Virus record (IMG/VR): IMGVR_UViG_3300047443_000115
Location: 27,589 to 91,588 of that record
Direction: 5' to 3' (one strand)
Source: a virus
DNA: 64,000 nt
The position numbers were made by a program, and so were the translations under genes. Positions 1 through 63,536 of the stretch are shown in pieces (the stretch's first letter is position 1; the number at the start of each line of letters is the position of its first letter). The notes beneath the pieces are model-generated. The model ran no database searches. It was given only the letters and a program-made list of their open reading frames with translations, and was not told the origin of the DNA.

Positions 1-569
1 CCGTACTCACGTCCGGCGAGGACGATGCACCGACTGCACGCGGGCGGGTTGACCACCCGGATATAGCCGTTGATCGTGCGGTTCCCCGCGATCGACACCC
101 CGGTGGCCGCCCTCCCGGCGTCCGTGACCTCCGACGCCGCCATGCGCAGCAACTGCTGCAGGCCCGTCATCATCGCCTCGACCTCATCGACGCCTGCCGC
201 GATGGCCGTCTTCGACGTGATGAGCGGCAGATCCAGCAGCGTGTCCAGCGACCGACCATCAGCAGCAAGCCCAGCGAAGGCCTCTGGACGGACACGGCCC
301 GCGGGATCCGAACTCAGACCCCGTGCCGCGATGATGGACTCGACGTAGGCGTCTGCGGCTGCCGCCGTAGCCAACTGGCCGGCGGTCACCGTGCGGACCA
401 CCTCCGGGCCGATGTAGATGGCCCACGAACGGCTCAGATCGCGGCGGTCGATCTCCCGCCACAACTGCTGAACCCGGTCCGCCACCCGGCGGGCATGCGA
501 CTGCTGAGCCACATAGAAGGCGTTCGCGAGCTCCTCGGCCGACAAATCCCGCACCGACCCCGTGGCCAT
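1..569 (-). CDS. MuF/VG15-like minor head (capsid maturation) protein, partial
   Basis: Head protein that in related phages follows the portal gene and takes part in capsid assembly or maturation. 189 residues are visible; the C-terminus lies beyond the left edge. The ATG shares its A with the last base of the portal TGA, so translation is coupled. The visible part is a helical, Ala/Arg/Gln-rich N-terminus, then near the edge the segment NPPACSRCIVLAG, a Cys-x2-Cys block I recognise from actinophage proteins called VG15, MuF-like or capsid maturation protease. Position straight after the portal supports this. Whether it has protease activity cannot be judged from the part present. Confidence 0.75.
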   Translation of the reverse strand, partial: MATGSVRDLSAEELANAFYVAQQSHARRVADRVQQLWREIDRRDLSRSWAIYIGPEVVRTVTAGQLATAAAADAYVESIIAARGLSSDPAGRVRPEAFAGLAADGRSLDTLLDLPLITSKTAIAAGVDEVEAMMTGLQQLLRMAASEVTDAGRAATGVSIAGNRTINGYIRVVNPPACSRCIVLAGREY

Positions 570-2002
570 CAGGCCACCTCCGCGGGTTCGGGATCAGCCT
601 CAGGCATGACGGGATCGGGCGGAGGCTTCGGGCCCGCCTCCAGCGCCGAGAAGTCGCCCGCCATGATGCGCTGCATCGCGTCCTGCGCGGCGGCCTCGTC
701 CTCTTCCTCCATGCGCTCGATCTGCGCCTGCGTGTACCGCAGGTCTTCGCGCGTCTGCCGGAGAGGCACGATCTTCGCCTGGAACTTCTTCACCGAAGCG
801 TCCGCGACCTGCGCCACCGTCGGAGTTGAAGCGTCCCGCCAGATCGTCTCCAGTGACCGGGCCGCCGGATCCCACTCGCCATCCTTCACTCGCAGCACAA
901 GCCGCATGACGCGCTCCCACGAGCCGCCCCACGCCCGCTGCTTCCGCTCCGCGCGCTTCACCAGGCGGGTCTCGCTACTGCGGATCGCATCCGCCGAGGC
1001 CGGGTTCTGGGTGCTGTAGCCCAGGAACTGCGGAGGTAGACCGGACAGGCTGGAGACCAGCTGCGCGAGCTGATTCAGCGTGCTGTGGAAGTTGCTGAGC
1101 GACGCTTCCGGGAACTGGACGACATCCGCGCCATCCTGCTTGGAGCGCTCCGTCGCCCACATCCGGCCGATGATCCGGCTGAACGCCGACACCCGACGGC
1201 CGGACTCATCGACGAAGTCCTCCTCGCCGAAGCCGAACGCCACGCGCCGCGGCGTTGCGTGATACTCGGCGCTGACCATCATGTCCGTTGCGATCTTGCA
1301 GGCCGCGTCGGACAGTGGGATGACGTCCTGGAGCTCCGACACACCGCCCGGACACTTCAGGCGCGGCCGGTTCGGCAGCACCTCGACCAGAACCTCGCCC
1401 GTCTCGTGCTCATCCCTCGGATACTCCGGATCCTCGACCCAATGACCCGACTCCTTCACCCACCACACCGTGGCGTCCGGCAGGTACAGCGTCGCGTGAT
1501 CGACCTTCCGGCCCTCGTCGCCGTCCTCCTGCCAGCGCTTCACCGCAGCCGCCACCCGACGCGTCCGAGGATCGAACTCCGCGAACATGTCCAAGGCGCT
1601 CTCGACGGTGATCAGCGGCGTCGAGTCGTCATCCTCGTTCGCGCCCACCACGATGTACGAGCGCCGCATCGCCAGGGCATCCAGGTGCCCCATCTGCGAC
1701 TGCTCGTCCATGTCATTGGCCTGCCAGATCCGCCAGAGCTCGTCATCGGCGTCCGCCACGCCGGGGAAACGGAAGCCCTCCACGTCCAGGCGCTCCTCGA
1801 TGCTGTCGACGATCAGGCGCGGCCAGTTGATGACGACCTGGCGAACCGTCTCCTGCAACTCCACCTGAAGCTCCGGCGCCATGTACGACAGCGGCTGAGA
1901 GCCCTCGTAGTAGGAGTTCAGGCGCTTGAGCTCGTTCAACTCCTTGTCGTGGCACGAGATCAGGTGAGTCAGCCACTGCAGCTCGGAGCGCTCCACAGGC
2001 AC
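569..2002 (-). CDS. Phage portal protein (SPP1 gp6-like)
   Basis: Forms the dodecameric ring at the head vertex through which DNA is packaged and ejected. 477 residues, a usual length for the SPP1-gp6-like portal family. N-terminal residues include SYYEGSQPLSYM and the NWPRLIVDSIEERL helix seen in actinophage portals; the C-terminus is acidic and Pro-rich. The start is a GTG 4 bp after the terL stop; the stop overlaps the next ATG by one base. The order terS-terL-portal-MuF is canonical. There is no sign of frameshift or truncation. Confidence 0.92.
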   Translation of the reverse strand: MPVERSELQWLTHLISCHDKELNELKRLNSYYEGSQPLSYMAPELQVELQETVRQVVINWPRLIVDSIEERLDVEGFRFPGVADADDELWRIWQANDMDEQSQMGHLDALAMRRSYIVVGANEDDDSTPLITVESALDMFAEFDPRTRRVAAAVKRWQEDGDEGRKVDHATLYLPDATVWWVKESGHWVEDPEYPRDEHETGEVLVEVLPNRPRLKCPGGVSELQDVIPLSDAACKIATDMMVSAEYHATPRRVAFGFGEEDFVDESGRRVSAFSRIIGRMWATERSKQDGADVVQFPEASLSNFHSTLNQLAQLVSSLSGLPPQFLGYSTQNPASADAIRSSETRLVKRAERKQRAWGGSWERVMRLVLRVKDGEWDPAARSLETIWRDASTPTVAQVADASVKKFQAKIVPLRQTREDLRYTQAQIERMEEEDEAAAQDAMQRIMAGDFSALEAGPKPPPDPVMPEADPEPAEVA

Positions 2003-2006
2003 CCCC

Positions 2007-3626
2007 TCACCGCATGACGATCATCTTGGACTTCTTCTTGGGACGGGCCAGGCCGGCGGCCGTCGCATCCCCAGCGGCCTCATGGGCGAGGATGCTCGGG
2101 ATCGCAGCGTCGATCTTCTGAGACGGGCTCGCCTTGCCGAGCACATACCGGCCGCCGACACGGGCCGCCTTACGGGCGTTCCGGACGTGCGCGGCCGTGA
2201 TCACACAGCCGTCATGCCGGAACACCGACTCCGTCTTCGTGACGTCCGTTAGCAGTCGCTCCGCCGCCGCATGCATCTGCACCGTGCGGTACGTGTACCA
2301 GCGCACGACGCGCTTTTCGCCGTGTCGGTCCGCCCATCCGTCGACCTCCGACTCCCAGTACGGCGGATCGCAGTACATGCGCAGCACGTCGAAACGCGCG
2401 AACACCTCGTCGACCGCCGCGGCCACTTCAAGGCGAGGCACCTGGCCGCCGTAGTCCGCCGGATTCCAGATTGTCGGCAACTCATCCGGGCCGAATGTCG
2501 GCGTGAACTGGTAGCCGTCCAGCGTCTCCAGGCGGAGCGCTGTCCAGTCATCAACGTCCGAGCCGTCGAAGCCGGCCACGACCGTCGTGCCGTCCGGGAC
2601 CTCGCGGAACTCCGCGAGGGTGTCCCAGGCGTCGCCGTTCATCCAAGACCCGGCGCCGTACACGATGCGGTTCCCGAAGAATCGCTCCGCCTGCTCCGGA
2701 TCCTTCTCCAGTAGCTCGGCAGCCTCCGCCTCGATCGCATCCAGGTCGACGTGCGTCGAGCCCATGTAGACATGCCGGTGGATCTTCCGCCGGTCCGTCT
2801 TGTTCGTGTACTTCAGCGACGCCGGCGGCACCCGGTGGAACCGGAAGATGTCCTTGACCTTCGCCTCGGACGTGGCCTGCGCGACGCTGTTCTCCGACGG
2901 GTTCCACGCATTCGTGGTCTCCATCGTGCGGCCACCCATACCGGCGGCGCCGCGGCGCTGGGTCGTGGCAACCCGGTCCATCTTGTTCGCCGGAGTCCAC
3001 AGTTGGGTCTCATCCTGAAGGACGAACGTCACCGGGTTACCCAGGCGGGACTGCGCGCTGCTGGTGACGACGTCGATGCGGCCGTCATTCGGAAGGCGAA
3101 TGAACTGCTCCCCGACCCGCATCAGCTCACCCAACGGGCCGGTTCGGATCATCGCCTGCAGAGGCCGGTAGACGTTGTCGGTCTGCTCCTCCGAGAACGC
3201 CGTGATCTGCACCAGCGGCGTCGGCCACGGAATCGCCATCGGCTCTCCCGGTGAGTACTCGTACACCCACCCGCAGCCGCAACCATGATCGCGGCAGTCG
3301 TACACCTCGCCGCCAACCGCCCAGCCGTCAAAGACCGCTGGTCCAACGCCCTCATTCGCACAGACCGCCGCAGTCCACGGACCTTTCCCCGTCTTCTGAG
3401 GAGCAACACACTGGGACCGGCGGTAGAAGAACGCCGGCGCCAACTGGCCCACCGTCGCAGTTGGCTTCACGCGGTAGAAGTTCGCCGTGCACCACAACTG
3501 CCAGTCGTACATCTGGAACGGCTCACCCTTGCGGAAGCCATCCGGAATGCGGCAATGCTCCTCGATCCAGTCGCAAGCCACCCACAGCGTCGGAAAGTCG
3601 ACGACGAACTCGCTACTCTTCTCCAT
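2007..3626 (-). CDS. terL: Terminase large subunit
   Basis: Packaging motor ATPase and headful/cos nuclease. 539 residues. A Walker A-like APQKTGKG lies at about 75-82 and a Walker B-like VTFVLQDETQ at about 199-208. The C-terminal RNase H-like nuclease begins with an Asp in VVAGFDGSDVDD (about 349-360), with a later Asp in MYCDPPYW (about 417). The start overlaps the end of terS by 14 bp. One oddity is a Cys-rich insert between the Walker motifs (about residues 109-122, CRDHGCGCGW), which could bind zinc; related actinophage terminases with this insert exist as far as I recall, but I could not check. Confidence 0.93.
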   Translation of the reverse strand: MEKSSEFVVDFPTLWVACDWIEEHCRIPDGFRKGEPFQMYDWQLWCTANFYRVKPTATVGQLAPAFFYRRSQCVAPQKTGKGPWTAAVCANEGVGPAVFDGWAVGGEVYDCRDHGCGCGWVYEYSPGEPMAIPWPTPLVQITAFSEEQTDNVYRPLQAMIRTGPLGELMRVGEQFIRLPNDGRIDVVTSSAQSRLGNPVTFVLQDETQLWTPANKMDRVATTQRRGAAGMGGRTMETTNAWNPSENSVAQATSEAKVKDIFRFHRVPPASLKYTNKTDRRKIHRHVYMGSTHVDLDAIEAEAAELLEKDPEQAERFFGNRIVYGAGSWMNGDAWDTLAEFREVPDGTTVVAGFDGSDVDDWTALRLETLDGYQFTPTFGPDELPTIWNPADYGGQVPRLEVAAAVDEVFARFDVLRMYCDPPYWESEVDGWADRHGEKRVVRWYTYRTVQMHAAAERLLTDVTKTESVFRHDGCVITAAHVRNARKAARVGGRYVLGKASPSQKIDAAIPSILAHEAAGDATAAGLARPKKKSKMIVMR

Positions 3627-4974: not shown

Positions 4975-5139
4975 TGACCCAAGGGAGCTACCCTCGGGAT
5001 GGTTACGGATGGTAGCAGTCTACCGGATCCGCAAGTTGATCATGAAGTTTAGAACCCTCCTGACCTGGCAGCCACCTCCCCGGCGGTCCTTCGGCCGCCG
5101 GCCTGCAGGGCATAGCCCCGCCCCCTCAGCCGCCCGCCG
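4975..5139. other. Gene-free stretch between the HNH gene and the small-gene block
   Basis: With the preceding hairpin this 220-bp gap is the longest in the late region. I see no open frame with coding character. It is the best place in the window to look for a cos or pac site, because packaging sites commonly lie just before the terminase genes; that is inference only. Confidence 0.35.
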
Positions 5140-5448: not shown

Positions 5449-5450
5449 GG

Positions 5451-5681: not shown

Positions 5682-5947
5682 GCTGCCTCCTCGGGTGGTG
5701 TCCAGCCGAGTGCGATGAGGGCCTTGGCTGCGTGGTCGTTGACGATGACGCGGGCGGGCTGGAGTTCGGTGGCGTCGAGTTCGTGGATGACCGGGTCGAT
5801 CGCGAGCGTGGGTAGTTCACCAGGCGCGATGGTGAGGGTGGCGCCTCTCAGTCCGTGCGATAGGTCCACGCCGTCCACGATGACCTTGTGCCGGGTGTCG
5901 TTGCTGTTGATCTGCACGGCGTGGGTGCGGTGGCCGTCCTTGCTCAT
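5678..5947 (-). CDS. Small phage protein, unknown function
   Basis: 89 residues from an ATG that overlaps the upstream stop (ATGA). The composition is beta-rich: HAVQINSNDTRHKVIVDGVDLS then LRGATLTIAPGELPTLAIDP. The pattern resembles short head- or tail-associated proteins that present a single beta domain, but I cannot name a family. The long in-frame extension upstream is antisense shadow. Confidence 0.65.
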   Translation of the reverse strand: MSKDGHRTHAVQINSNDTRHKVIVDGVDLSHGLRGATLTIAPGELPTLAIDPVIHELDATELQPARVIVNDHAAKALIALGWTPPEEAA

Positions 5948-26107: not shown

Positions 26108-26227
26108 TGATTCCCGGCGCTAGGCATGCAAAAGGCCGGACGGTTGCCACCGTCCGGCCGAAGATCAAGGCGGGGTGCAACCCGCCGATCAGTTGAGGTC
26201 CAACCTGCCTGGAAGGAGCGCTCTTCT

Positions 26228-26557
26228 GTGAGCGTACAACAGAGCACGTCCGTTCGACCCACCGAAACCTCTGAGGCCTCCGTCACCCCTCCCGCCGTCA
26301 CGCTTCTGGCGAAGCTGTGGCAGTCGGCACCCCTCTCCCTGCTCCTCGAAGCGGCGAACGCCCGCGTCCTGGACTCGGAGATCGACGACGACTACTTCTT
26401 CGGCAGTGCGGTGCAGCGCAAGGACGGGCGTCTGTTCCTCGTCATGCCGACCGGCCGGCCCGAGGCGGAGCGGGACACGATCGTCCGCGACCTCATGGCG
26501 CGGATGCTCCGCGTACCGCTGCCGGGCATGACGCCGACCAGGCGAGTGGCCGCATGA
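26228..26557 (+). CDS. Small protein of the GntR-controlled rightward operon
   Basis: 109 residues, GTG start with AAGGAG 9 bp before it. Disordered Ser/Thr start, then VTLLAKLWQSAPLSLLLEAA and a beta hairpin (FFGSAVQRKDGRLFLVMPTG). No family recognised. First gene behind the GntR-type promoter. Confidence 0.6.
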   Translation: MSVQQSTSVRPTETSEASVTPPAVTLLAKLWQSAPLSLLLEAANARVLDSEIDDDYFFGSAVQRKDGRLFLVMPTGRPEAERDTIVRDLMARMLRVPLPGMTPTRRVAA

Positions 26558-26889
26558 CCGACGGCAACATCCCCGACTACTACATGGAGCGCGCGCGCTT
26601 CCTCGCCACCGTCAAGGACATTGGCGAGGGGACCGAGGTGGCCGACGCGGCGCTCGACCTGATGATCAGGCTGGAGAGTTCCATCCAGTCACCCTGGGCA
26701 GTCACAGACCCGTTCGCCGCCGAGCGCTACCTCGTGGCACGCGGAGCCGACCCGGACGTCGCATCCGAGGAGGGTGTCGTCTTTGAGATCCAGATGCGCG
26801 CCCTCGTCAGCATCGGCCTCGGACGCCCCGTCCAGTCGTTCAGCGAGATCGCCGGCTGGATCGCCGAACACGTCGACACCACCCCGTAG
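26554..26889 (+). CDS. Small acidic helical protein
   Basis: 111 residues, ATGA-coupled to the gene before it. MTDGNIPDYYMERARFLATV and several acidic helices. Function unknown; probably a partner of its neighbours. Confidence 0.6.
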   Translation: MTDGNIPDYYMERARFLATVKDIGEGTEVADAALDLMIRLESSIQSPWAVTDPFAAERYLVARGADPDVASEEGVVFEIQMRALVSIGLGRPVQSFSEIAGWIAEHVDTTP

Positions 26890-26981
26890 TTGTCCGTCCC
26901 TGCCCGTACAGTCGCATGACCGCCCCCGACTGGATTCACGTCCAATCGGGGGCGGTTCGCGGACCGGTAAGGAGTCCACGC

Positions 26982-28061
26982 ATGACAACCGCATCGCGGC
27001 GGTCAGTTCGTTCGCTTGCCTGTGAGGCTGAGTTTCGGGCCCGCGTAGAAGAACTGGGGGGCTGCGTCCTCGAACCTGAATGGCTTGGGGTGCTGAATCG
27101 CCATCGCATCCGGTGCGCCCAAGGCCATGAATATGCACCGAGACCACGGTACGTCCTTCAAGGCGGCGGCATCTGTCGCACTTGCTCCGGCCTTGACCCG
27201 CGCGCAGTTGAGGCCGCCTTCCGGGCCCGCATAGCAGGGCTCGGCGGCACCATCCTGGAACCCAAATGGCTCGGGGCTGATCGGCCTCACCGCGTCCTTT
27301 GTGTCGCTGGACACGAGAGCGCGCCTCGCCCGAGCGATGTCCGCCAGGGGGATGGGATATGCAAGACGTGCGCAGGAACGGACCCACGTGCGGCCGAAGC
27401 TGCGTTCCGAGCCCGCGTCGAGGAGCTAGGCGGCACTGTCCTTGAGCCCGTATGGCTTGGGGCGCAGAAGCCTCACCGCATCCGGTGTGCCGCTGGGCAC
27501 GAAGTAATGCAGCGGCCCAACAGCATTCAGCAAGGGAGAGGCCTTTGCCGCACTTGCGCCGGGAATGATCCGAAGGTTGCCGAGGCGGAATTCCGGGCGC
27601 GCGTGGAAGAGTTGGGAGGCGTTGTTCTCGAACCCGTGTGGCTTGGAGTCAAGACGCCTCATCGAATCAGATGCTCCGCCGGGCACGAAAGCACGCCGCG
27701 ACCGTCAGCTGTGCAGCAGGGTGGAGGTATCTGCAGGCTCTGTATGGGACAGGTCTGGGATGCGTTCTACGTCCTCCTCGACGAGGAGGAGCAGATGGTG
27801 AAGTTCGGGATCACATCTGGTAACGCTCGGCCCCGCCTTGCCGGCCATGCACGGGACGGATACTGCACCCGCGTGCGGCTCATGACGGACCTGCCACTGG
27901 GTGCCGCACGGGGGCTAGAGAAGACAGTGCTCGCCACCCTGGACCTCGCCGGCGTTGAGCCGGTCCGTGGTCGCGAGTATTTCCATGTGTCGGCACTGCC
28001 CGTCATCCTTGATATCGCCGACAACTACCCGATCCCGGCGTCTAAGCCCCGACCCGCCTGA
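26982..28061 (+). CDS. Four-fold zinc-knuckle repeat protein with GIY-YIG-like C-terminus
   Basis: 359 residues, AAGGAG 8 bp before the ATG. Residues about 15-262 are four tandem repeats of 62 residues, each with FRARVEELGG, LEP-x-WLG, PHR-x-x-C-x3-GHE and a closing GICRTCAG, i.e. one C...H...C-x2-C zinc site per repeat. The last 95 residues read FYVLLDEEEQMVKFGITSGN, an Arg in RLAGHARDG, a Glu in GLEKTVLATL and REYF, the order of GIY-YIG nucleases. Probably a sequence-specific nuclease with a modular zinc DNA-reading array. Not an architecture I recognise. Confidence 0.75.
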   Translation: MTTASRRSVRSLACEAEFRARVEELGGCVLEPEWLGVLNRHRIRCAQGHEYAPRPRYVLQGGGICRTCSGLDPRAVEAAFRARIAGLGGTILEPKWLGADRPHRVLCVAGHESAPRPSDVRQGDGICKTCAGTDPRAAEAAFRARVEELGGTVLEPVWLGAQKPHRIRCAAGHEVMQRPNSIQQGRGLCRTCAGNDPKVAEAEFRARVEELGGVVLEPVWLGVKTPHRIRCSAGHESTPRPSAVQQGGGICRLCMGQVWDAFYVLLDEEEQMVKFGITSGNARPRLAGHARDGYCTRVRLMTDLPLGAARGLEKTVLATLDLAGVEPVRGREYFHVSALPVILDIADNYPIPASKPRPA

Positions 28062-28433: not shown

Positions 28434-29000
28434 ATGAGGAAGATTCCAACGCTCTTCAAGCGGGACCCGGACGACCGCCGTCATGTGCTGCCGGAGGTGA
28501 ACGAGGGCTGTGAGTGGGTCCTCGCTGGCGAGGGTGTCGCGACCCGCAAGTTCGATGGCACGTGCGTCATGCTCCGCGAGGACGGCTCGTGGTGGGCGCG
28601 CCGCGAGGTGAAGCCGGGGAAGACGCCGCCGCCCAACTTCGTGCCGCTGTCCACCGACGAGGTGACGGGGAAGACGGTGGGCTGGGAGCCAGTCGAGCAG
28701 TCCGGGTTCGCGAAGTGGCACGCCGAGGCGGTCGAGAACTGCGGGCCCCCCGAGGGCGCTACGGGCACGTTCGAGCTGATCGGGCCAAAGGTCAACGGGA
28801 ACCCGGAGCAGAGCCCGATGCACCTGCTCGTCGAGCACGCGCACGCCGTCAATGTCGAGGTGCCGGTGCTGACGTTCGAGGGTATCCGGAAGACCGTACT
28901 GGCCCTGGCTGAGTCCGACGACTGCGAGGGCATCGTGTGGCACCACAAGGGCGGCCGCATGGTGAAGATCAAGGCACGCGACTTCCCGAAGGGAGTCTGA
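28434..29000 (+). CDS. RNA ligase-like nucleotidyltransferase (DUF5565-type)
   Basis: 188 residues. Motif I RKFDGT (Lys39 as the AMP acceptor), motif III FELIGPK (113-119), motif IV EGIVWH (165-170) and motif V VKIK (177-180), the covalent nucleotidyltransferase set without an OB fold. Small RNA ligases of this type occur in actinophages and may repair nicked tRNA. First gene of a rightward five-gene unit. DNA ligase is less likely given the size. Confidence 0.8.
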   Translation: MRKIPTLFKRDPDDRRHVLPEVNEGCEWVLAGEGVATRKFDGTCVMLREDGSWWARREVKPGKTPPPNFVPLSTDEVTGKTVGWEPVEQSGFAKWHAEAVENCGPPEGATGTFELIGPKVNGNPEQSPMHLLVEHAHAVNVEVPVLTFEGIRKTVLALAESDDCEGIVWHHKGGRMVKIKARDFPKGV

Positions 29001-29802: not shown

Positions 29803-30359
29803 CCACCACCGTCCTGCCCCACGCCCCGCAGGTCCGCTCAGCCTCCCTGCTGGTGGCCGTGGACCCGGTGGAGGATGCCCGCCGTCGCACGGCCGGACTG
29901 GGCGCCGTGACGGACATGGCCGCGCTGGAGCTGCTGCTCACCCTCCCGGAGGGTTTCCCGGTCCCCGTGGCGTCCCTCCCGGACCGCGACCGCCGGGCTC
30001 TCAAGCGGCTTCCTGCGGGCGTGGTGGAGGCGTCCGGGGGTGAGGTGGTCCGGCTGGCCGTGAAGCCGCTGCGGGCGGTCCTGGCGACCGTGCGGGGTAC
30101 TTGCTCCGAGACGGCCCTCGGGAAGGCGTCGAGCTTCGCCCCGTTCTGCGCCCGCCGCGTCCTCACCCGCGTCCGGCCGGAGTTCCCGGAGACCCTCATC
30201 GAGTTCGGCTTCTACGGTGTTGGCGTCACCTACCGCGCGGCCGATGGCGCTGAGGAGACGCTCGTCGAGCCACGACCGTGGCGGCCGATGCGGCACACGC
30301 CGGCTGGCTGGCGGTTCATCGAGCAGGCATACGAGCAGTACCGCCAGGAAGCGCCGTGA
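29799..30359 (+). CDS. Protein of unknown function
   Basis: 186 residues, ATGA-coupled on entry and GTGA-coupled on exit. Helical N-terminal half with MAALELLLTLPEGFPVPVAS; C-terminal half with EFGFYGVGVTYRAADGAEE. No motif recognised. Confidence 0.6.
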   Translation: MTTTVLPHAPQVRSASLLVAVDPVEDARRRTAGLGAVTDMAALELLLTLPEGFPVPVASLPDRDRRALKRLPAGVVEASGGEVVRLAVKPLRAVLATVRGTCSETALGKASSFAPFCARRVLTRVRPEFPETLIEFGFYGVGVTYRAADGAEETLVEPRPWRPMRHTPAGWRFIEQAYEQYRQEAP

Positions 30360-30601
30360 CCCCCGACCACACCCCCACTCCCCGCCTCCTCTCGTCCCGC
30401 GTCGCCGAGGCCCTGTACCTGGCGACGGTCGGCCCGCTGACGGCCATCGCGAGCGCCCTCGCCTGCGCGGCAACGGGCGGCCACCTGGCCGCGTACTTCG
30501 GCACACTGGTGGTGCTTGCGTTCGCGGCCGGCTGGTGGCATGAGCGGCCCGTCGCCTGGATCCAGCGGTGGCTCGCGCGGAAGCCGACGCCTGGCGAGTA
30601 G
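30356..30601 (+). CDS. Small membrane protein
   Basis: 81 residues, GTG start. Hydrophobic helices at about 20-40 and 43-59, then a basic amphipathic RPVAWIQRWLARK. Last gene of the rightward RNA-ligase unit. Unknown role. Confidence 0.6.
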   Translation: MTPDHTPTPRLLSSRVAEALYLATVGPLTAIASALACAATGGHLAAYFGTLVVLAFAAGWWHERPVAWIQRWLARKPTPGE

Positions 30602-30646
30602 CCGCGCGCAGCAATCAGCCCCCGGTCCGTGGACTCGGGGGTTGTG

Positions 30647-30853
30647 TCACGTCTCGGGCAGCGTCTCCTGCGGCACCTCGAACCGCCCGACGCCCGGCCC
30701 GACCCTGATCCCGAGCTTCTGCCGGCACCGCGGCCCAAGCCTGTACAGCCGCGAGATGCGGTCGTGCAACTCCTCGTCGCACTCGTCGCACGGAACGACG
30801 ACGCGCCCCGTCGCCAGCTCGTTGGAGCGGGCGAGGAGCGCGTCAGGGGTCAT
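30647..30853 (-). CDS. Small zinc-knuckle-type protein
   Basis: 68 residues. CDECDEELHDRISRLYRLGPRC gives a Cys-x2-Cys and a further Cys; the sequence type with LGPRCRQKLG recurs in actinobacterial phages. Likely nucleic-acid binding. Starts 15 bp after the glycosyltransferase gene. Confidence 0.65.
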   Translation of the reverse strand: MTPDALLARSNELATGRVVVPCDECDEELHDRISRLYRLGPRCRQKLGIRVGPGVGRFEVPQETLPET

Positions 30854-30868
30854 GGGTCCAGTGTGCGG

Positions 30869-32218
30869 CTACGCGGCACTCTCGCGGCCGGGGAGGCGCA
30901 TCTCCAGCGTATGGCCGCCGTCGACGTCCAGGAGCTTCACCAGCGGCACCGTGACGGCCTCGTGGCGCGGGATGGGCAGGGTCGGCGCCTGCTGCGGAAT
31001 GCGCCCGGTAGTGGCCTGCCTCGTCCCCCACCCATTGCGCCGCAGTGTCGCCAGCGCGTACAGGCGGAGCGGGATGAGGAGCGTCAGGTTCATCAGCGCG
31101 TACAGCGGCGCCGCGGCGAACGTGAGGATCCGGTCGGTACGCGGCACCTGGCCGGCCGAACGCAGGTAGTGCAGCGACCGGAACCATGCGGCGGCCGAGA
31201 CGTACACGGCGTACCAGGCGAACACGGTCCAGGCGTGCGGGTTGCTGGCGAACACCGCGAGGGCGACCAGCAGGGCCGAGGTGAACGCGATCCACGTGGC
31301 GAGCTCGACGAGGTTCAGCCACCAGTAGGCGCGGCCCATGGAACGGACCCTGAGCGCCAGGAGGACGCCCTCGCGGATGAAGGACTTGGTCCAACGGGTC
31401 TGCTGGCGCAGGTAGCCAGAAAGCCGGTGCGGCACGTCGGTCCAGGCGACCGCGGTGGGCACGATCAGCGACTGGCCCTCCAGCAGGCAGTAGTAGGTGA
31501 GCCTGCGGTCGTCGCCGAACGTGCACTCCTTGCCGAGGAAGCGCTGCCCGAGGAAGTCGTCCAGGTACTTCCGGACGGTTGTGCCGCGGTAGAGGGCGAG
31601 CGATCCGCAGGCGCACAGGACGGAGCCGAGGCGGGAGTAGGCGACGCGTTCGCCCAGGAAGGCGTTCTGGTAGCGCATGTCGATCAGGCGGGTCAGCAGA
31701 TTCCGGCTACGGTTCGCAGCCAGGACGAGGCCTGTCACGGCGTGGACGCGGCGGCGGGCGAACGGCCGGGCGGCCTCCTCGACGGCGTGCGCGTCCAGCA
31801 CGGTGTCGGAGTCGACGCACAGGTAGATGGCGGCGTCCTGGCGGGCGTTGAACCCCGTGGCGAGCCCGTGGCGCTTGCCTCTGTTGACGGGGAACCGGAT
31901 GAAGTCCAGACGGATCCCCGCGGCAGCGAACGCCGGGCGCAGATGGTCGATGACTCCAGCGGCCGAGCGGTCCTTCGAGCAGTCGTCGATGACCGTCAGA
32001 CTGTCGGGCCGGCGAGTCTGATCGAGGATCGACTCCAGGCAGCGGCGGAGCGCGGCAGGGTCCTCGTTGAAGGTCGTGACAACTCCGTGGATGACGTGGC
32101 CGGTCGGCCCTGCCGGCTGCTGCGCGGTGGGTCTGCGGCGCCGCTTCAGCGACGCGAGGAGCTTGATGGCGAGCAGGCTGCCCACGGCTATGCCGTACCA
32201 GCCCAGGTGATTGTGCAC
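30869..32218 (-). CDS. Membrane glycosyltransferase 2, hyaluronan-synthase-like
   Basis: Processive beta-glycan synthase family (HasA/NodC). 449 residues from a GTG. N-terminal membrane helix (about 8-24). Catalytic set: VIDDCSKD (about 77-83), CVDSDTVLD (about 134-142), FGDDRRLT (234-241) and QQTRWTKSFIRE (272-283), the last matching the HAS-type QxxRW with its KS-x-x-RE extension. Three to four C-terminal helices would form the export pore. Size and motifs fit class I hyaluronan or chitooligosaccharide synthases. Probable lysogenic conversion: an altered host surface. Confidence 0.85.
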   Translation of the reverse strand: MHNHLGWYGIAVGSLLAIKLLASLKRRRRPTAQQPAGPTGHVIHGVVTTFNEDPAALRRCLESILDQTRRPDSLTVIDDCSKDRSAAGVIDHLRPAFAAAGIRLDFIRFPVNRGKRHGLATGFNARQDAAIYLCVDSDTVLDAHAVEEAARPFARRRVHAVTGLVLAANRSRNLLTRLIDMRYQNAFLGERVAYSRLGSVLCACGSLALYRGTTVRKYLDDFLGQRFLGKECTFGDDRRLTYYCLLEGQSLIVPTAVAWTDVPHRLSGYLRQQTRWTKSFIREGVLLALRVRSMGRAYWWLNLVELATWIAFTSALLVALAVFASNPHAWTVFAWYAVYVSAAAWFRSLHYLRSAGQVPRTDRILTFAAAPLYALMNLTLLIPLRLYALATLRRNGWGTRQATTGRIPQQAPTLPIPRHEAVTVPLVKLLDVDGGHTLEMRLPGRESAA

Positions 32219-32255
32219 AGGGGTCCCCCGTGAGTGTGGGTCGAGTGGTGGTTGG

Positions 32256-32468
32256 TCAGCCGCGGCGGGTCTTGGCGACGACAACGTCTACGCACGCCGC
32301 GGGCAGGTCCACGACGCCGTTGAGGTCCCCGAGCCCAATCCCGTGCTGGGCTGCGACGGCAAGCAGGTCCCGGAGTAGCTCCAACGCCGAGGCCCGCACC
32401 TCCGGGCTGATGGCGGGCCCGTGGCGGTGGACGGCGGCGATGGCCTCGGCCGGGGTGCGGGCGGTCAC
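32256..32468 (-). CDS. Small protein, unknown function
   Basis: 70 residues, GTG overlapping the upstream stop. Helical with LELLRDLLAVAAQHGIGLGD. No family recognised; the last small gene before the glycosyltransferase. Confidence 0.55.
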   Translation of the reverse strand: MTARTPAEAIAAVHRHGPAISPEVRASALELLRDLLAVAAQHGIGLGDLNGVVDLPAACVDVVVAKTRRG

Positions 32469-32656
32469 TGCTCAGCCTCCACGTCGAGTCGCGAAGCGGC
32501 CCACTCCACACCCTCGGCGAACCCGGGGCCGCGGTCGGGGTGGGTGTCCCGGAGCCGCTGCCCGAGGCTCCGCAGGTAGTTCGCGAGCAGCGGCTCCATG
32601 ACCTCGTCGAGGTGAGCGTCGCCGGCGAGGTTGATGATGTCGTTGCGGGTGGTCAT
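32465..32656 (-). CDS. Small helical protein, unknown function
   Basis: 63 residues, ATGA overlap with the previous gene. MTTRNDIINLAGDAHLDEVM then helical to the end. Unknown. Confidence 0.55.
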   Translation of the reverse strand: MTTRNDIINLAGDAHLDEVMEPLLANYLRSLGQRLRDTHPDRGPGFAEGVEWAASRLDVEAEQ

Positions 32657-33060
32657 CGGGTTGCTCCGTTCGGGTTCGGGTGGCAGTCGGCCCCGCCGTC
32701 GTGCCCGCAGTCGCACGGGCTGCCGGTCGGGCCGTGGACGGGGCAGGCGTCGGCGGGGGTGTCGAGGCCCTCGGTGGGGCCGAACCGGACGCGCGACCCG
32801 GTGGGCCACCCCGCGACCACGTCGGCGAAGAAGTGCCCAGCCTGCCGGGCACGGTCGTCGCCGTCGGGGAAGTTCGCGGCCTCCCGCAACCGGGCCTCGT
32901 AGCGGGCCTCTACGGCGGCCGCGAGGGCGTCGGCTCGGCGCTCGGCTCCCGCGAAGCCAGACTCGTTCGGCAGGGCGACGAGGGCGAACCCGATCAGCTC
33001 GTCTCGCGCCTCGGTGACGGCCTGCTCGGCACGGGACAGGGGGGTGGTCGGGTCGGTCAT
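32653..33060 (-). CDS. Small protein with a C-terminal Cys/His cluster
   Basis: 135 residues. Long N-terminal helix (AEQAVTEARDELIGFALVAL), then ACPVHGPTGSPCDCGHDG with four Cys and two His, a likely metal site. TGATG overlap with the upstream gene. Function unknown. Confidence 0.6.
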   Translation of the reverse strand: MTDPTTPLSRAEQAVTEARDELIGFALVALPNESGFAGAERRADALAAAVEARYEARLREAANFPDGDDRARQAGHFFADVVAGWPTGSRVRFGPTEGLDTPADACPVHGPTGSPCDCGHDGGADCHPNPNGATR

Positions 33061-37360: not shown

Positions 37361-38152
37361 TCAGGCGGCTTCGATCAGGTCGGCGATCTTCTCTGCGGCT
37401 ATGACGCGCTGGACAGCGAGCTCGGCATTGGTCCGATCGATCTCGACAAGGAAGCACCGGCGGCCTTCGAGGATCGCGGCGACGCCCGTGGACCCGGACC
37501 CGGCGCACGGGTCGACAACGAGGTCACCGCGCACCGTGGACGATTCGATGAGCTGCGCCATCACCTGCCACGGCTTTTCCGTCGGATGCCGCAGCGTGCC
37601 GTTCGGCCGTGGCCAGCGGATGACAGACCCACGCCGCAGACGCGCAGTCAGTGCCCCCCGCCCGTCCTTCCGGTCGCTGGGGCGTTTGAAGTGCACTCCG
37701 AACGTGATCGGTTCGTGGCTGGTGGCCCACGCCGAGGCCACGTCACCGGCCCCCGGGATGACCTTGTCCCAGATGAGTTCGGTGGTAGCGCTGAGCCGGA
37801 GCGGCTTTGCCAGGGCAGAGGCGTCGTATCCGAAGACCATGACGTGCCGCTTGTCGGCCATACCGACGCTGCGGGTGCCGTCGGGTCCAACCCACTCGCC
37901 GAGCACTGCCGGCCAGTCCACGGAGCCGTCGTCGCCGGTGAGCTGTTCGAACTGCTTGGACCAGTTGGAGCGGTAGCCGATGCCGTAGGGCGGGTCGGTG
38001 GCCAGCAGCCCGTACTCACGCGGAACCCGGGCGATGATCTGCGGGTCGCGGCAGTCGCCCCAGGTGACCGTGGCGCGCGGGGACTGGTGGAGGATCTGGC
38101 CGCCGGGTGGCGGGGTGAGCGGGAGGTCGAGGGTGTCGGTGGTGAGGGTCAT
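37361..38152 (-). CDS. DNA amino-methyltransferase (N6A/N4C), beta class
   Basis: 263 residues. Motif IV TDPPYGIGY near residue 52 precedes motif I DPCAGSGSTG near 215, the order of the beta class. No restriction gene is adjacent, so it most likely protects phage DNA from host restriction. ATG start with GGAAGG before it. Confidence 0.85.
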   Translation of the reverse strand: MTLTTDTLDLPLTPPPGGQILHQSPRATVTWGDCRDPQIIARVPREYGLLATDPPYGIGYRSNWSKQFEQLTGDDGSVDWPAVLGEWVGPDGTRSVGMADKRHVMVFGYDASALAKPLRLSATTELIWDKVIPGAGDVASAWATSHEPITFGVHFKRPSDRKDGRGALTARLRRGSVIRWPRPNGTLRHPTEKPWQVMAQLIESSTVRGDLVVDPCAGSGSTGVAAILEGRRCFLVEIDRTNAELAVQRVIAAEKIADLIEAA

Positions 38153-38292: not shown

Positions 38293-39600
38293 CCTCCCCG
38301 ACTAAATGCCGGGGATCCCCGCCTGCTCCCACCGCATGGGGGAGGGCTTCGGGTGGGTTGCTGCTTCGTCGCGCGGTGCCGGCACGAGTACCGGTCTTAC
38401 CTGCGCTCCACGGCCGTTTACGGTCTCCGCCCGTCCGGCGGCGACCTTTCGTCCTTCGGTTCGGATGTTGCGTGCCGCGTTGATGTCGCGGTCGTGCGTC
38501 ATGTCGCAGCCTTGGCACGTCCATGTGCGGACGTTGAGGGGCTTTGGGCCGTCCTTGAACCCGCACGCTGAGCAGAGCTGCGACGACGGGAAGAATCGGT
38601 CCACGCGGGCAAAGGTGCGCCCGTAGCGTGTGGCTTTGTACTCCAACATGGTCACGAACGCAGACCATCCGGCGTCGTTGACGGACCTGGAGAGGCGCGT
38701 GCGGGCAAGGCCGTTCACCGCGAGGTCTTCCACGTACACCGCTTGGTTCTCGCGGATGATCGTGGTCGACAGCTTGTGGTGAAAGTCCCGGCGCGCGTCC
38801 TTCACCTGGGCGTGAACCTTGGCGACCTTGATGACGGCCCTCTTGCGATTCGCGGAGCCCTTCGTCTTCCGGCTGAGAGCCCGCTGCGCCTTCTTCAGCT
38901 TGCGTTCGGCGCGGCGGAGGAACTTCGGTGATGCCACCTTGCGGCCGTCCGACAGCACCGCGAAGTGGGTGAGGCCAAGGTCGATGCCCACCTCGGGCGT
39001 GGTCTCCGGCAGCACCTCGGAGCCGTCTGTCATCACGACGAAGGAGGCGAAGTACCGGCCGGCCGCATCCTTGACCACAGTCACTGATGACGGAGTCGAG
39101 GGCAGGGCGCGGGACCACTTCACCCGCAGCTCGCCGACCTTGGCCACGTACAGGTGACCATTGGGGCGGATTGAGAAGCCGTTGCGGGTGAGGCGGATTG
39201 CCTGCCGGTTGTCCCGCCTGGACCGGAACCGGGGCGGGGCCACTTTCGGGCCCTTGCGCTTGCCCGTGGCCGAGGTGAAGAAATTTCGGTAGGCGGTGTG
39301 CAGGTCGGCGAGCGCCTGAACCAGAACGACCGAGGACACCTCTGCCAACCATGCCCGCTCGGGGGTCTGTTTCGCGGCGGTGATGACCTGCTTCTGGAGG
39401 TCGGTGTCCTTGAGGTACGGCAGCCCCGCCGCACGGGCGTCCTGTCGGGCCCTCAGGGCGTCGTTGAAGACCGCGCGGGCGCAGCCGAAGGCGCGGGCGA
39501 GTTGCTGTTCCTGGCTGGGGGTGGGGTAGAGCCGGAAGTTGTACCTGAGCTGCACCCCGCACCCCCTGATCAAGTAGTTGAACTACTCCAAGCATAGCAG
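38286..39600 (-). mobile_element. Single-gene TnpB element (IS200/IS605-type), no transposase
   Basis: Right end: just beyond the tnpB stop, reading leftward GGGGATCCCCGGCATTTAGTCGGGGAGGACGTCAA in two pieces, a subterminal stem ending as such elements do. Left end: the palindrome AGTAGTTCAACTACT at about 39574-39588. No TnpA gene is present, so it must be mobilised in trans. Exact boundaries need comparison with an empty site. Confidence 0.6.
38302..39555 (-). CDS. tnpB: TnpB RNA-guided nuclease
   Basis: 417 residues. N-terminal helical domain (YNFRLYPTPSQEQQLARAFG), RuvC motif I VGIDLGLTHFAVL, II VYVEDLAVNGLA, III DRDINAARN, and between II and III the zinc ribbon CSACGFKD...CQGC. All catalytic acids are present. 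The guide omega RNA would come from the tnpB 3' end and right end of the element. GTG start, AGGGGG 6 bp before; an upstream TTG is possible. Relative of Cas12; may serve phage competition as well as element retention. Confidence 0.9.
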   Translation of the reverse strand: MQLRYNFRLYPTPSQEQQLARAFGCARAVFNDALRARQDARAAGLPYLKDTDLQKQVITAAKQTPERAWLAEVSSVVLVQALADLHTAYRNFFTSATGKRKGPKVAPPRFRSRRDNRQAIRLTRNGFSIRPNGHLYVAKVGELRVKWSRALPSTPSSVTVVKDAAGRYFASFVVMTDGSEVLPETTPEVGIDLGLTHFAVLSDGRKVASPKFLRRAERKLKKAQRALSRKTKGSANRKRAVIKVAKVHAQVKDARRDFHHKLSTTIIRENQAVYVEDLAVNGLARTRLSRSVNDAGWSAFVTMLEYKATRYGRTFARVDRFFPSSQLCSACGFKDGPKPLNVRTWTCQGCDMTHDRDINAARNIRTEGRKVAAGRAETVNGRGAQVRPVLVPAPRDEAATHPKPSPMRWEQAGIPGI

Positions 39601-40887: not shown

Positions 40888-42693
40888 TCAGGCGGCGGCA
40901 CTGAAGGCGGGGGCTGCGGCGGCGTATCGGTCCAGCTCCTCGCCGGCCACGGCTTCGACGAGGGCGCAGACGATGACCTCGGCGGCGTTCGGGGTAACGG
41001 CGTTGCCATATTGTCTGACTTTTTCCCGCTTTGACCCGATCACGATGTACTGGTCGGCGAAGCTCATCGCCCGGCCGATCTCGTGGGGTTCGAGCATCCG
41101 GAACAGCACGTCCTCGATGTCGACCTCGCCCTTGACCAGGGCGTAGTGATCGCGCGTCATCATCGTGCCGACCGGCTCAGCGACCGTCCTGGCCACACCC
41201 TTGCCGTAGTACGGCACCAGCAGGTGCTCCCAGGTGACGAGCGACTGGTGGCCGGCGGTGGTCAGCGACCGGAGCGGCTCGTTGACGGGGGTGCTGAGGT
41301 ATCCGGAGTCGCCGCGCGCCGAGTTGTTGCGCATGACCATGGCGGCCGTGTCCGGCATGACGAGCCCGTGGTGGTTCCCGGACGCGGTGACCGTCGCGAG
41401 GGCGTCACCCACGGACCGGGCCACGGAACCGCCGCCGCGCAGCTCCGCGACGAACGGCAGCCAGGCGAGCCCGGTCTCGTTGCGGGCAGTCTGGGTACGC
41501 AGCGGCAGGTTGGCGCTCGACGGCTCCTTGCCGTCGCGGCCCTCGACGGGGATCAGCAGCGGCGGGATCGCTATGCCGTCGTTCTCCCGCGTCGTCCTCG
41601 TCGACATCGGCTCCGACACCGGGCTCGGGGCGTCGCGCCAGGTTCCGCCGGCCGGGACCATGAACGGCTCGTAGGCCATGGCCTTCGTCGCCGTCGTGGT
41701 CTGGGTGGTGAGCGGCGCGTCGATCGGCCAGGTGCGGACGCCCGGGCGCCGCTCGAACGTGTTGCCCGCGGCCTCCAGCGAGATTGGCCGGGCGAACTTC
41801 TTCAGCCCGGCCTGGATGCGGGCGAGCGTCTTGTCGGCGAGGGGCTTGGCCCGGTCGCCGATCCGCTGGCCCGGCAGGCTCCAGTCGATCGCCACGGCGG
41901 CCGGGAGCGTCTCGGGCTCGACGACCTGGTTGCGGCACTTCACCTGCGGGCAGCGGTACACGTACTGCTGCCGGTAGCGGCCCATGTCGCGGGCCGGGTC
42001 CTTGAACGCCTGGACCGCCTGGACCCACTCCTCGCAGCCCGTGCACCAGGCGCGCGGCCGGAGCCACTTGTTCCAGTCCGGGGTCCGGCCCAGCGACTCG
42101 TGCCAGTACGCCACGTAAAGGCGATCGCGGCTCTGAGGCGCACGGTGGACCGCACGCGGGTCGGCGTGCATCGAGTTCAGGGCGATCACGCGGGTCAGAT
42201 AGCCGAGCTTCTTGATCTCCCCGATCCAACGGTCCCACTGATCCCAGGCCCGCACGTCCACGACGTTCTCGACGACGCCGGCCTTCACCAGGCCGCCGCG
42301 CTCCTGAACGCCCCGCAGGTACAGCGGCACTTCCTCCATCAGCGCCCGGGACCGCTCGACCTCCTCCGACGGGGCCGTCTCGCCGAACAGGTCGTCCTGC
42401 AGCGAGTTGGCGAAGTCCCGCTTCTTGCCTCGGGCGTTCGACCACTGCGGGCACTCGGGGCTGGCCCAGAAGATGTCCGTGACGGGCCACTTCTCGACCG
42501 GGGCCTCACGGATGTCGCCGCGGTAGTGGTCGACCTCGGGGAAGTTCGCGGCGTGCGACTCGATCGCGCGGGCCCAGTGGTTCGCGGCGCGCTCTACCCG
42601 GACGCCGGGGATGGAGTGCATGCCCTGCGAGCTGCCTCCCGCGCCACAGAACCAGTCCATAACGGTCAGGGCGTCGTTGTCGTATCGGGTCAT
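40888..42693 (-). CDS. C5-cytosine DNA methyltransferase
   Basis: 601 residues. Motif I DWFCGAGGSS (about 13-22), motif IV WASPECPQWS with catalytic Cys81, VI ENVVDV, VIII QSRDRLYV and X VRQYGNAVTPN at the end, with a large target-recognition region holding a zinc-like CTGC...CPQVKC. Motif IV has Pro-Glu-Cys where most have Pro-Pro-Cys, a known variant in phage enzymes as far as I recall. Start ATG overlaps the upstream stop (TGATG). Protects phage DNA; recognition site unknown. Confidence 0.9.
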   Translation of the reverse strand: MTRYDNDALTVMDWFCGAGGSSQGMHSIPGVRVERAANHWARAIESHAANFPEVDHYRGDIREAPVEKWPVTDIFWASPECPQWSNARGKKRDFANSLQDDLFGETAPSEEVERSRALMEEVPLYLRGVQERGGLVKAGVVENVVDVRAWDQWDRWIGEIKKLGYLTRVIALNSMHADPRAVHRAPQSRDRLYVAYWHESLGRTPDWNKWLRPRAWCTGCEEWVQAVQAFKDPARDMGRYRQQYVYRCPQVKCRNQVVEPETLPAAVAIDWSLPGQRIGDRAKPLADKTLARIQAGLKKFARPISLEAAGNTFERRPGVRTWPIDAPLTTQTTTATKAMAYEPFMVPAGGTWRDAPSPVSEPMSTRTTRENDGIAIPPLLIPVEGRDGKEPSSANLPLRTQTARNETGLAWLPFVAELRGGGSVARSVGDALATVTASGNHHGLVMPDTAAMVMRNNSARGDSGYLSTPVNEPLRSLTTAGHQSLVTWEHLLVPYYGKGVARTVAEPVGTMMTRDHYALVKGEVDIEDVLFRMLEPHEIGRAMSFADQYIVIGSKREKVRQYGNAVTPNAAEVIVCALVEAVAGEELDRYAAAAPAFSAAA

Positions 42694-48493: not shown

Positions 48494-48879
48494 CGCGGGT
48501 CCTCCTCGCCGATGAAGTCGTAGGCGGGCATCGCCCACAGCAGTTCGCACAGGTCGAGGCGTTCGGCTGCGTCGATGTGCGCGTAGAGGGCGGCCTGTGC
48601 GTCGAGGTCGACGGGCCATCCGTCTCCGCCGCCGGCGTTGGCCTGCCAGCAGATGCCCTGCCGTTCGTCGGCGATGGCGTAGCGGCGGGCGTACAGCCGG
48701 TGCCTGGCGGCGCGTCGCACGGCCCGATTGCGGTAGTGGCGTGCGATCCGCCACGCGCCCCACCCGGCGCCCGCGACGACGCTGGTGGCCCCGGCGGCGA
48801 GGAGGGCGGCGTACAGCCACCAGGCGGCGTTGGCGATCCGCGTGTACAGGTCGAGGAGTGACGAGAGGTCGGCGGTCAT
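48490..48879 (-). CDS. Single-helix membrane protein
   Basis: 129 residues. One strong membrane helix (about 18-38, LYAALLAAGATSVVAGAGWGAW) after a short N-terminus, then a basic stretch and an acidic C-terminal domain. Coupled on both sides. Unknown function. Confidence 0.6.
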   Translation of the reverse strand: MTADLSSLLDLYTRIANAAWWLYAALLAAGATSVVAGAGWGAWRIARHYRNRAVRRAARHRLYARRYAIADERQGICWQANAGGGDGWPVDLDAQAALYAHIDAAERLDLCELLWAMPAYDFIGEEDPR

Positions 48880-61708: not shown

Positions 61709-62287
61709 ATGCTTGAAGGTCTCTTCCAGTTGGCCGACCTCGACAGCGAGGAGCCCGTGCGTATGAGTGAGCGCCGAGGCAACATCACTGTCGATCTCGC
61801 CCGGACGCTCTACACCGCAAAGGGCAGGGACGGGCTGAACGGCGCCGTCAAGGAAATGCTGGAGAGCGGCAAGTGGTACCAGCTCTGGCGCGGCGAGATC
61901 GTCTCGATGCAGTCGTCCACGACGCCACGGCCTGCCAGCGCCCCCGAACTAGTTGCCGCGCAGGAGGGTCCCCGCGAGTTGCCCAAGGGCGAACCAAAGA
62001 TCATAGTGCGGTACGTCCTCGACGAACTCCTCGACGACGGAGAGGTCCGACTCGGGCAGGACCGCGGCCTCGTCGTCTTCTCACTGTCTCCGACCTGCTT
62101 CACGCCCGAGGGCCTGGCATGTGACGCTGTCGGTGCCCTCACGGCAGCCGCGCAGGGAATAGTGGAAGGCGGGCAGTGGATCCAGGTCTGGGACGGCGAA
62201 ATCATCACCATGTACGACGGCGAAGATGGGGGCGGCACGGATGGCCGGATACATCGAGGACCGCTGGTACCGGAAGGGTCCGCCTGA
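61709..62287 (+). CDS. Internally duplicated protein upstream of the integrase
   Basis: 192 residues, AGGGGG 6 bp before the ATG (an earlier in-frame ATG at 61691 is weaker). Two copies of one ~70-residue unit: first ends ESGKWYQLWRGEIVSMQ, second EGGQWIQVWDGEIITMY. Each begins with a DLA/SLS strand and FT-x-(E/K)-G helix. Ends 46 bp inside the integrase gene, so translation is coupled. Function unknown. Confidence 0.6.
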   Translation: MLEGLFQLADLDSEEPVRMSERRGNITVDLARTLYTAKGRDGLNGAVKEMLESGKWYQLWRGEIVSMQSSTTPRPASAPELVAAQEGPRELPKGEPKIIVRYVLDELLDDGEVRLGQDRGLVVFSLSPTCFTPEGLACDAVGALTAAAQGIVEGGQWIQVWDGEIITMYDGEDGGGTDGRIHRGPLVPEGSA

Positions 62288-63536
62288 CCCCGAAACCGGT
62301 AAGCCCACCCGCGAAGAGACCGACCTGCACGGCGTAGGAATGCGGTACAAGGTCGCAGGCATCCCGGGCGTCCGTGCGCGGTCCTTCCCCGAGAAGCGGC
62401 TCAAGGACGCTCGGGCATGGCTTGCTGACGCACAGAGCAAGAGCCGCGCGGGAGAGTTCATCGATCCGCGCCGCGGGCAGATCCTGCTGGTCGACTACAT
62501 CGAGCAGCACTGGTGGCCGACGATGACCGGCGACCCGGCAACGCTGGAGACCATCGCGAACCGGGTTTGGGGTCACATCGTTCCGCGCCTGGGCCAGTTG
62601 TCGCTGAATGCCATCAAGGTGGAGCAGCTACGGCGGTGGCTCAAGGATGTTGAGGCGGACATCGGCCCGAGCACCATCAACGCCGTGTGGGGCTACCTGT
62701 CGGTGATCCTCACCGCCGCAGTTGAGGGCGAGCGCATTCCGCGCAACTACTGCAAGTCCTCCAGCGTGAAGCCACCTGCGGTGCCTGAGCGCAAGGCCCG
62801 CGCCTGGACCAGGGAGCGTGTGTTCGCGGTACGGGAGGCCATCGACCCGCGGTACCGCCTCATGGTCGACCTCGGAGTCGGCGCCGGCCTGCGCCAGGGG
62901 GAGATGCTCGGCCTGTCCGTCGATGACATCGACACCCACGCGGGTGTGATCCGTATCCGGCGCCAGGTCCGCAAGGTGGACAACAAGCTGGTCTTCGCTC
63001 CACCCAAGCGCGGCAAGAGCCGTGTTGTGCCCTTGTCGCAGCACCTTCACGCCCTTATCAGCGCGCACATGGAGGCGCGTCCGCCCAAGAAAGTGGAGTT
63101 GCCCTGGATCAACTCGGCGGACCCTGAGACGGACAAGCAGATCAAGGACTGGGCGCCGCAGACGCACGAGCTGATCCTCACCAGCCCGTGGGGGAAGGCG
63201 ATCCGGCGGGACAGCTGGAACCGGCTGGTGTGGAAGGAGGCATTGGTCGGGGCCGGCGTCATACCGCCGCCCATGACGCGCAAACAGCCCGTCAGGGGCA
63301 CGAACAAGTTCCGGACGGTGAAGAGTTATGCGGAGAGCCGCCAGGACGGTCTGCATGCCACCCGGCACACGTTCGTGAGCCAGCTGCTGGGCGCCGGGAC
63401 GTCGATCGTGGCAGTATCGAACTACGTGGGCCACAAGGATCCGTCGATCACGCTCCGGATCTACGCGCACATGATGCCCGAGTCGGATGAGCGCGGGCGG
63501 GCCGCGATTGATGCCTGGTTCGAAGGCGAATCCTAA
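62241..63536 (+). CDS. int: Tyrosine integrase
   Basis: 431 residues. An N-terminal arm-binding domain with YRKGPPDPETGKPTR, a core-binding SAM-like domain (TLETIANRVWGHIVPRLGQL), and catalytic R218 (GLRQGEM), K in PPKRGKSR, H372-x2-R375 (HATRH), H398 (GHKDPSITLRIY) and Y408. All residues present. Carries out integration into the host chromosome; excision would need one of the Xis-like proteins. MAGYIEDRW is the preferred start. Confidence 0.93.
   Translation: MAGYIEDRWYRKGPPDPETGKPTREETDLHGVGMRYKVAGIPGVRARSFPEKRLKDARAWLADAQSKSRAGEFIDPRRGQILLVDYIEQHWWPTMTGDPATLETIANRVWGHIVPRLGQLSLNAIKVEQLRRWLKDVEADIGPSTINAVWGYLSVILTAAVEGERIPRNYCKSSSVKPPAVPERKARAWTRERVFAVREAIDPRYRLMVDLGVGAGLRQGEMLGLSVDDIDTHAGVIRIRRQVRKVDNKLVFAPPKRGKSRVVPLSQHLHALISAHMEARPPKKVELPWINSADPETDKQIKDWAPQTHELILTSPWGKAIRRDSWNRLVWKEALVGAGVIPPPMTRKQPVRGTNKFRTVKSYAESRQDGLHATRHTFVSQLLGAGTSIVAVSNYVGHKDPSITLRIYAHMMPESDERGRAAIDAWFEGES

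Follow-up and report, generated by a model that had tools for sequence, protein, structure and literature searches.

The 64,000-nucleotide stretch of viral DNA analysed here (the window; bases 27589-91588 of the 91,588-base IMG/VR record IMGVR_UViG_3300047443_000115, G000) encodes a family 2 glycosyltransferase (GT2) of the hyaluronan synthase (HAS) type. The reading that we favor, with a probability of roughly 0.55, is that this gene specifies a membrane-embedded, processive HAS-type enzyme that is kept by a temperate actinobacterial phage and converts the surface of its host. During lysogeny or infection, the synthase would polymerise the UDP-GlcNAc and UDP-GlcA of the host, yielding hyaluronan or a closely similar acidic polymer, and would feed the product through the membrane, altering the host surface in a form of lysogenic conversion whose likely benefit would be the exclusion of competing phages. 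Its core is of the actinobacterial chromosomal type and its tail of the kind found on synthases of mobile elements. We infer the substrates, product, export, expression timing, surface effect and benefit, and phage exclusion by the synthase is a reasonable expectation.

The synthase gene is an uninterrupted open reading frame of 449 codons on the minus strand (30869..32218), with a GTG start at 32218 and a stop codon that ends at 30869. A single N-terminal membrane helix (residues 5-23; 32150..32206) is predicted by both hydrophobicity and the structural model. The motif set that the initial annotation had described as intact is indeed complete, since DDCS (residues 78-81), DSD, the DxD motif (136-138; 31805..31813), GDD (235-237, within GDDR at 235-238; 31505..31516) and QQTRWTKSF (272-280, with QQTRW at 272-276; 31391..31405) are all present; they are followed by the WGTR gating-loop motif (397-400; 31019..31030) and a C-terminal tail (401-449; 30872..31018) with a PLVKLLD motif at 425-431. 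The protein matches the Pfam GT2 family PF13641 (8.5e-22) and, among PDB entries, chlorovirus HAS (1.6e-32) and Xenopus HAS (9.2e-30). Membership of the PgaC/IcaA family (TIGR03937) was rejected, at 56 bits against an equivalog cut-off of 422.3. A scan of positions 30300-33000 for sigma-70 promoters and terminators found none, which is weakly informative at about 70% G+C.

The predicted fold of the synthase is nearest to those of solved hyaluronan synthases, above chitin and cellulose synthases. In the AlphaFold2 model (34 sequences, pLDDT 82.8, pTM 0.82), the single N-terminal helix is accompanied by a GT-A-type domain and by more helices towards the C-terminus, and hyaluronan synthases fill all of the first 13 rows of a Foldseek comparison with the PDB. 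In VIA-align, the best score was obtained with Chlorella virus HAS (CvHAS) with inserted UDP-GlcA (Z 34.2, 2.8 A over 380 residues), followed by XlHAS1 with nascent hyaluronan (33.0), PcManGT (30.9), chitin synthase (27.1) and cellulose synthase (25.3). The accessible portions of PMC11750622 and PMC12987647 name the residues of solved HAS enzymes that contact the polymer or UDP-GlcA, and those of PMC11750622 also supply the list of class I HAS motifs (DxD, GDDR, QxxRW and the WGT gating loop), all of which are kept in the window protein. In a residue table of 74 rows, R182, Y183, F187, R191 and C202, within a predicted hyaluronan-contact stretch (residues 182-202; 31613..31675), align to R287, Y288, F292, R296 and C307 of XlHAS1, and K115, C232, GDDR, QQxRW, S279, R282 and WGTR are also HAS letters. 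The CvHAS UDP-GlcA/hyaluronan positions K177, R341, W342 and R348 are likewise kept, and the sole mismatch among the compared contact residues is CvHAS His174, which is Asn112 in the window protein. By contact residues, tree position, NodC score and fold, the enzyme is thus of the HAS type, as had been claimed for it.

The N-terminal helix and the helices nearer the C-terminus are modelled, but TMH5 and TMH6, which follow the gating loop in solved class I-NR enzymes, are absent: the window protein ends 49 residues past WGTR, in a disordered end without a hydrophobic segment. No solved class I-R structure was found among the PDB matches to the window protein, and in those bacterial relatives whose tails were inspected by eye, no obvious extra helix was seen at the end either. 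Because the protein ends without the two post-gating-loop helices, export through the known HAS channel can only be presumed.

The nearest non-phage relatives are chromosomal actinobacterial genes with 60-66% identity, and they point to the product of the enzyme in more than one way. An adjoining gene of the UDP-glucose/GDP-mannose dehydrogenase family was found in four of the 17 class-1 host loci (class 1 being the HAS-type group to which the window gene belongs), namely L117, L122, L123 and L124, the only loci scanned for this family and chosen for their shared neighbour; a LytR-CpsA-Psr protein, whose family attaches glycans to the peptidoglycan of other bacteria, also lies near the synthase of L124. 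Streptomyces echinoruber, the species of L124, carries besides this chromosomal-type copy another HAS-type gene, whose surroundings are prophage-like (L126:4001-5308). The dehydrogenase family is present in both of the host genomes tried and absent from all six class-1 viral records scanned, those of the window, L002, L003, L004, L010 and L011, which would leave the phage reliant on the UDP-GlcA of its host. On the other hand, CBM3 proteins adjoin the synthases of L115 and L118 and a GH26-like protein adjoins that of L127, so a glucan or mannan product would also fit, and in a mangrove-soil phage a distant GT2 gene precedes others annotated as endoglucanase and mannanase. It is therefore conceivable, although unlikely, that the window enzyme makes another extracellular polymer, such as a beta-glucan, a mannan or a novel heteropolymer, in which case it would still be a surface-modifying phage synthase; the fold, the contact residues and the dehydrogenase beside four relatives favor a hyaluronan-type product instead.

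It is also improbable that the enzyme is a chitin-type, NodC-like synthase acting on UDP-GlcNAc alone, with HAS-like contact residues that would be ancestral. NodC is its best NCBIfam match (8.5e-63), belongs to the same superfamily, is 32-35% identical and is also a short bacterial GT2 that ends after the gating-loop position. Nevertheless, membership of the NodC family (TIGR04242) was rejected, as the score of 212.6 bits lies far below the equivalog cut-off of 550, and the two NodC sequences compared carry E and C at the positions of XlHAS1 R287 and F292, GED in place of GDD and WLSR in place of WGTR, all positions at which the window protein has the HAS letters. NodC and the solved HAS fragments fall elsewhere in the tree, on long branches whose placement is unsure.

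The carrier is an actinobacterial phage whose gene content marks it as tailed and temperate. The window contains an SPP1-type portal gene (569-1996, minus strand; Pfam) and the gene of the terminase large subunit (2007-3626, minus strand), which form a virion module (569..3626), as well as a tyrosine integrase gene (62241..63536, plus strand; Pfam) that indicates a temperate lifestyle. Matches across the whole record comprise terminase, portal, major head, tape measure, distal tail, endolysin, exonuclease and excisionase, and two integrases in all, the second at bases 5050-5931, at the far end of G000. Virion, endolysin, excisionase and integrase genes in the same record bear out the initial assignment of the synthase to a phage. 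Megablast of window positions 1-24000 and 26000-50000 found no DNA neighbours among named phages.

Class-1 synthases occur in eight viral records, those of the window (G000), of L002, L003 and L004, of L010 and L011, and of L230 and L231. Seven of them (G000, G002, G045, G046, G003, G452 and G453) have a terminase or portal match, and the eighth (G001) showed only an integrase. The expectation that phage-borne synthases of this kind are rare was not borne out, given these eight records and the abundance of the Kromp-like class 2 in Streptomyces-type phages and prophages; rarity holds only among sequenced isolates, where five of 50,697 phage records match, one of them across 80% or more of the query. 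The synthases of L002, L003 and L004 are 93-95% identical to that of the window, and the DNA similarity, unbroken over about 1.8 kb, covers the synthase gene, a short stretch beyond it and an upstream 70-codon open reading frame (32256..32468, minus strand) that accompanies the synthase in all four close phage copies. Other neighbours in these three loci are mostly different or missing relative to the window. The virion modules differ as well, since the terminase match in the L003 contig shares 31% identity with the terminase of the window and no match to the latter was found in the L002 and L004 contigs. A 90-base patch near QQxRW (window ~31320-31408) appears as an intragenic mosaic, with about 70% identity to the three close copies against about 90% elsewhere.

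In a 74-row tree, one clade (100/100) unites the four close phage copies and sits within Streptomycetaceae-type genes (14 rows, 99/97). L010 is joined by two Actinomadura genes and L011 by two Streptomyces genes; the 14 phage rows of class 2 are separate. Ten rows that are fragments, frameshifted or very distant (L025, L026, L027, L136, L156, L157, L159, L164, L165 and L168) were left out of both the tree and the residue table. By our reading, the phage copies would derive from at least three acquisitions; the label table gives two changes, since host rows outside any group do not enter its count. Among 392 genomes of Streptomyces species, 52 have a match at E <= 1e-20, and only three matches reach at least 54% identity. 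It had been proposed at the outset that grouping with host genes and absence from related phages would mark the synthase as a recent capture. The first part was found, since the gene does group with actinobacterial chromosomal genes; the second was not, as the gene persists in three further viral contigs, and even the nearest host gene has diverged by more than 30%. For the four closely related phage genes, pairwise dN/dS is 0.10-0.22 (simple Nei-Gojobori), and such purifying selection, together with retention amid turned-over flanks, argues for a maintained phage gene rather than a recent capture. That the synthase is phage-owned is thus well supported, and a passenger gene acquired from a host by chance and of no benefit to the phage is very unlikely, for although the closest non-phage relatives are chromosomal and none of 41 terminase-related loci carries the synthase (mostly fragments, checked without a positive control, among the 80 kept of 421 terminase relatives found), the 100/100 clade of four copies, the low dN/dS and the phage-type tail speak against it.

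That tail links the maintained, HAS-type gene of the window to a wider group of mobile synthases. The motif (I/V)P(L/V)xKLLDPxTExTL, in short PLVKLLDPxTExTL for the tail of mobile-element synthases, lies near the C-terminus, after WGTR, in 13 of 82 rows. Twelve were found by pattern (the window, L002, L004, L007, L013, L014, L015, L018, L019, L119, L132 and L135), and L003, which lacks one residue, was added by eye. All 13 fall within the 28 rows classed as mobile, that is, 23 viral rows and L119, L126, L132, L135 and L137, which were so classed because their neighbours are common to phage loci. The remaining 54 rows, among them plasmids and fragments, lack the motif, although the ends of L124 and L151 are weakly similar. 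Class-1 mobile and chromosomal class-1 proteins are about 66% identical in their cores and 15% in their tails, whereas the window clade and class-2 mobile rows are 38% identical in the core and 35% in the tail. Only four of 3,200 shuffled tails score as high as the weakest of the 16 observed; shuffled scores peak at 36, and 14 of the 16 observed are at least 45. A tail profile search recovered ten viral loci, all with the tail on GT2 enzymes, nine of class 2. The tenth, L178, has a core nearest PcManGT and cellulose synthase and shares DNA with the phages compared with L119 below only from the tail on. Among named phages, the tail was found on no other protein, only on that of Kromp itself.

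One trace of exchange is L119 (Streptomyces blattellae), which combines a class-1 core with a class-2 tail and has class-2 phage neighbours on both sides. Its DNA identity to L013, L014, L015, L132 and L135 (78-80%) begins at L119:5076-5163, just ahead of the WGTR codons, and spans the tail. One slot in Streptomyces phages thus holds three unlike cores with the same tail, with DNA homology starting at the tail. What is new here is this exchange of synthase cores onto a common tail. The window gene lies outside the core-swap slot and has only the tail in common with it, at the protein level. A search of Streptomyces genomes returned the tail in six of 392 (L219 to L224), where L219 is the L119 gene, L220 and L222 are class-2 genes, L223 is, by eye, another GT2-like protein, and L221 is a 118-residue non-glycosyltransferase protein with the tail in a similar setting; L224 was excluded from the count of tail carriers, as the motif is absent from it in the scan. 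The pN/pS of the 20-codon tail in the slot group (0.49) and the carrier L221 led us to reject a purely protein-driven tail, which may partly be a mark of recombination rather than a functional module. We tentatively suggest, as a possibility with the odds somewhat against it, that temperate phages of Streptomyces and its relatives possess a modular surface-glycan switch, in which a constant tail and slot receive hyaluronan-type, Kromp-type or cellulose-synthase-like cores by recombination near the border between gating loop and tail, so that lysogen capsules would vary with the prophage. The occurrence of the window protein's kind of tail on quite different synthases in related viruses suggests that such viruses alter the sugar coats of their bacterial hosts.

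Another recurrent companion of these synthases, absent upstream of the window gene, is a miniprotein that combines LAxTG or LPxTG with a hydrophobic stretch and a basic end and is encoded directly upstream of 28 of the 82 synthase genes. Its carriers are mostly of class 2, together with the class-1 loci L011, L128 and L129; matches at L136 and L167 were judged spurious. These proteins (L007:19555-19725, L013:5672-5839, L011:5789-5941 and 25 further loci) consist of little beyond these three elements, the first being an LAxTG sortase signal, and precede phage, plasmid and chromosomal GT2 synthases alike. The accessible text of PMC5148588 gives LAXTG as the class E sortase signal of Streptomyces, and a class E sortase gene adjoins one plasmid copy.

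Among known enzymes, the window synthase most resembles the class I-NR CvHAS of PBCV-1, a virus-borne GT2 with DxD, GDDR, QxxRW, WGTR and the hyaluronan-contact residues, and its best fold match. It differs in its carrier, a tailed actinobacterial phage, in its 449 residues with one N-terminal helix and no post-gating-loop helices, and in sequence (about 25% identity). The chromosomal HAS-type GT2s of Actinospica (L115), Actinacidiphila (L117) and Streptomyces (L118) share the core at 60-66% identity and the same residues except the Cys before GDDR; in contrast to the window protein, chromosomal HAS-type GT2s have unrelated C-terminal tails. The class-2 enzyme gp79 of Streptomyces phage Kromp, which was isolated on S. 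lividans, is also phage-borne, 37% identical and in possession of the tail motif, but, like class 2 in general at most compared contact positions, it is unlike HAS, lacking the hyaluronan-contact residues and the GDDR/QxxRW letters, and it has an LAxTG membrane miniprotein upstream. The gtr serotype-converting clusters of temperate phages consist of a flippase, a lipid-carrier transferase and an exchangeable type-specific transferase. In the role proposed for the window gene, both would be temperate-phage means of changing a surface glycan with an exchangeable type-specific enzyme, the difference being that here one synthase acts and, in the relatives, cores are swapped onto a constant tail. 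In gtr clusters, gtrA/gtrB-like partners lie beside the type-specific enzyme; a general Pfam scan gave no match for most of the synthase neighbours covered.

The accessible text of PMC10939387 describes HAS from vertebrates, streptococci and a Chlorella virus. No bacteriophage HAS was found in titles and abstract openings of the open-licence literature, which is weak evidence that none has been published; the papers listed on phage glycosyltransferases and superinfection likewise yielded no HAS case, and in PMC3474794 HAS appears only among the references. If the favored reading is correct, such phages would replace the surface polymer of their host by means of a single gene, receptor masking in mycelial Gram-positives becomes testable, and harmless bacteria and their phages offer a source of short HAS-type enzymes. 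The switch, if real, would be a Gram-positive, single-enzyme counterpart to serotype conversion, and some tailed phages would produce an animal-type glycosaminoglycan.

The synthase and three of its neighbours match none of the anti-phage defence families of PADLOC 2.0.0. Elsewhere in the phage, the early region encodes a protein of the IS605 OrfB/TnpB type that contains a Cas12f1-like TNB domain (window 38302-39555, minus strand), and three DNA-methyltransferase-like genes lie at 37361-38152, 40888-42693 and 48876-50249, all on the minus strand. In the separate locus L006, a 502-residue open reading frame that adjoins the portal gene (L006:12678-14186, minus strand; bases ~26178-27686 of its record) has a middle part that reads, by eye, as intein-like within a phage head protein. 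A protein matching the RNA ligase RLIG1 is encoded at window positions 28434-29000 on the plus strand, and a copy 52% identical to it lies in a Streptomyces prophage-like locus (L135:7031-7600).
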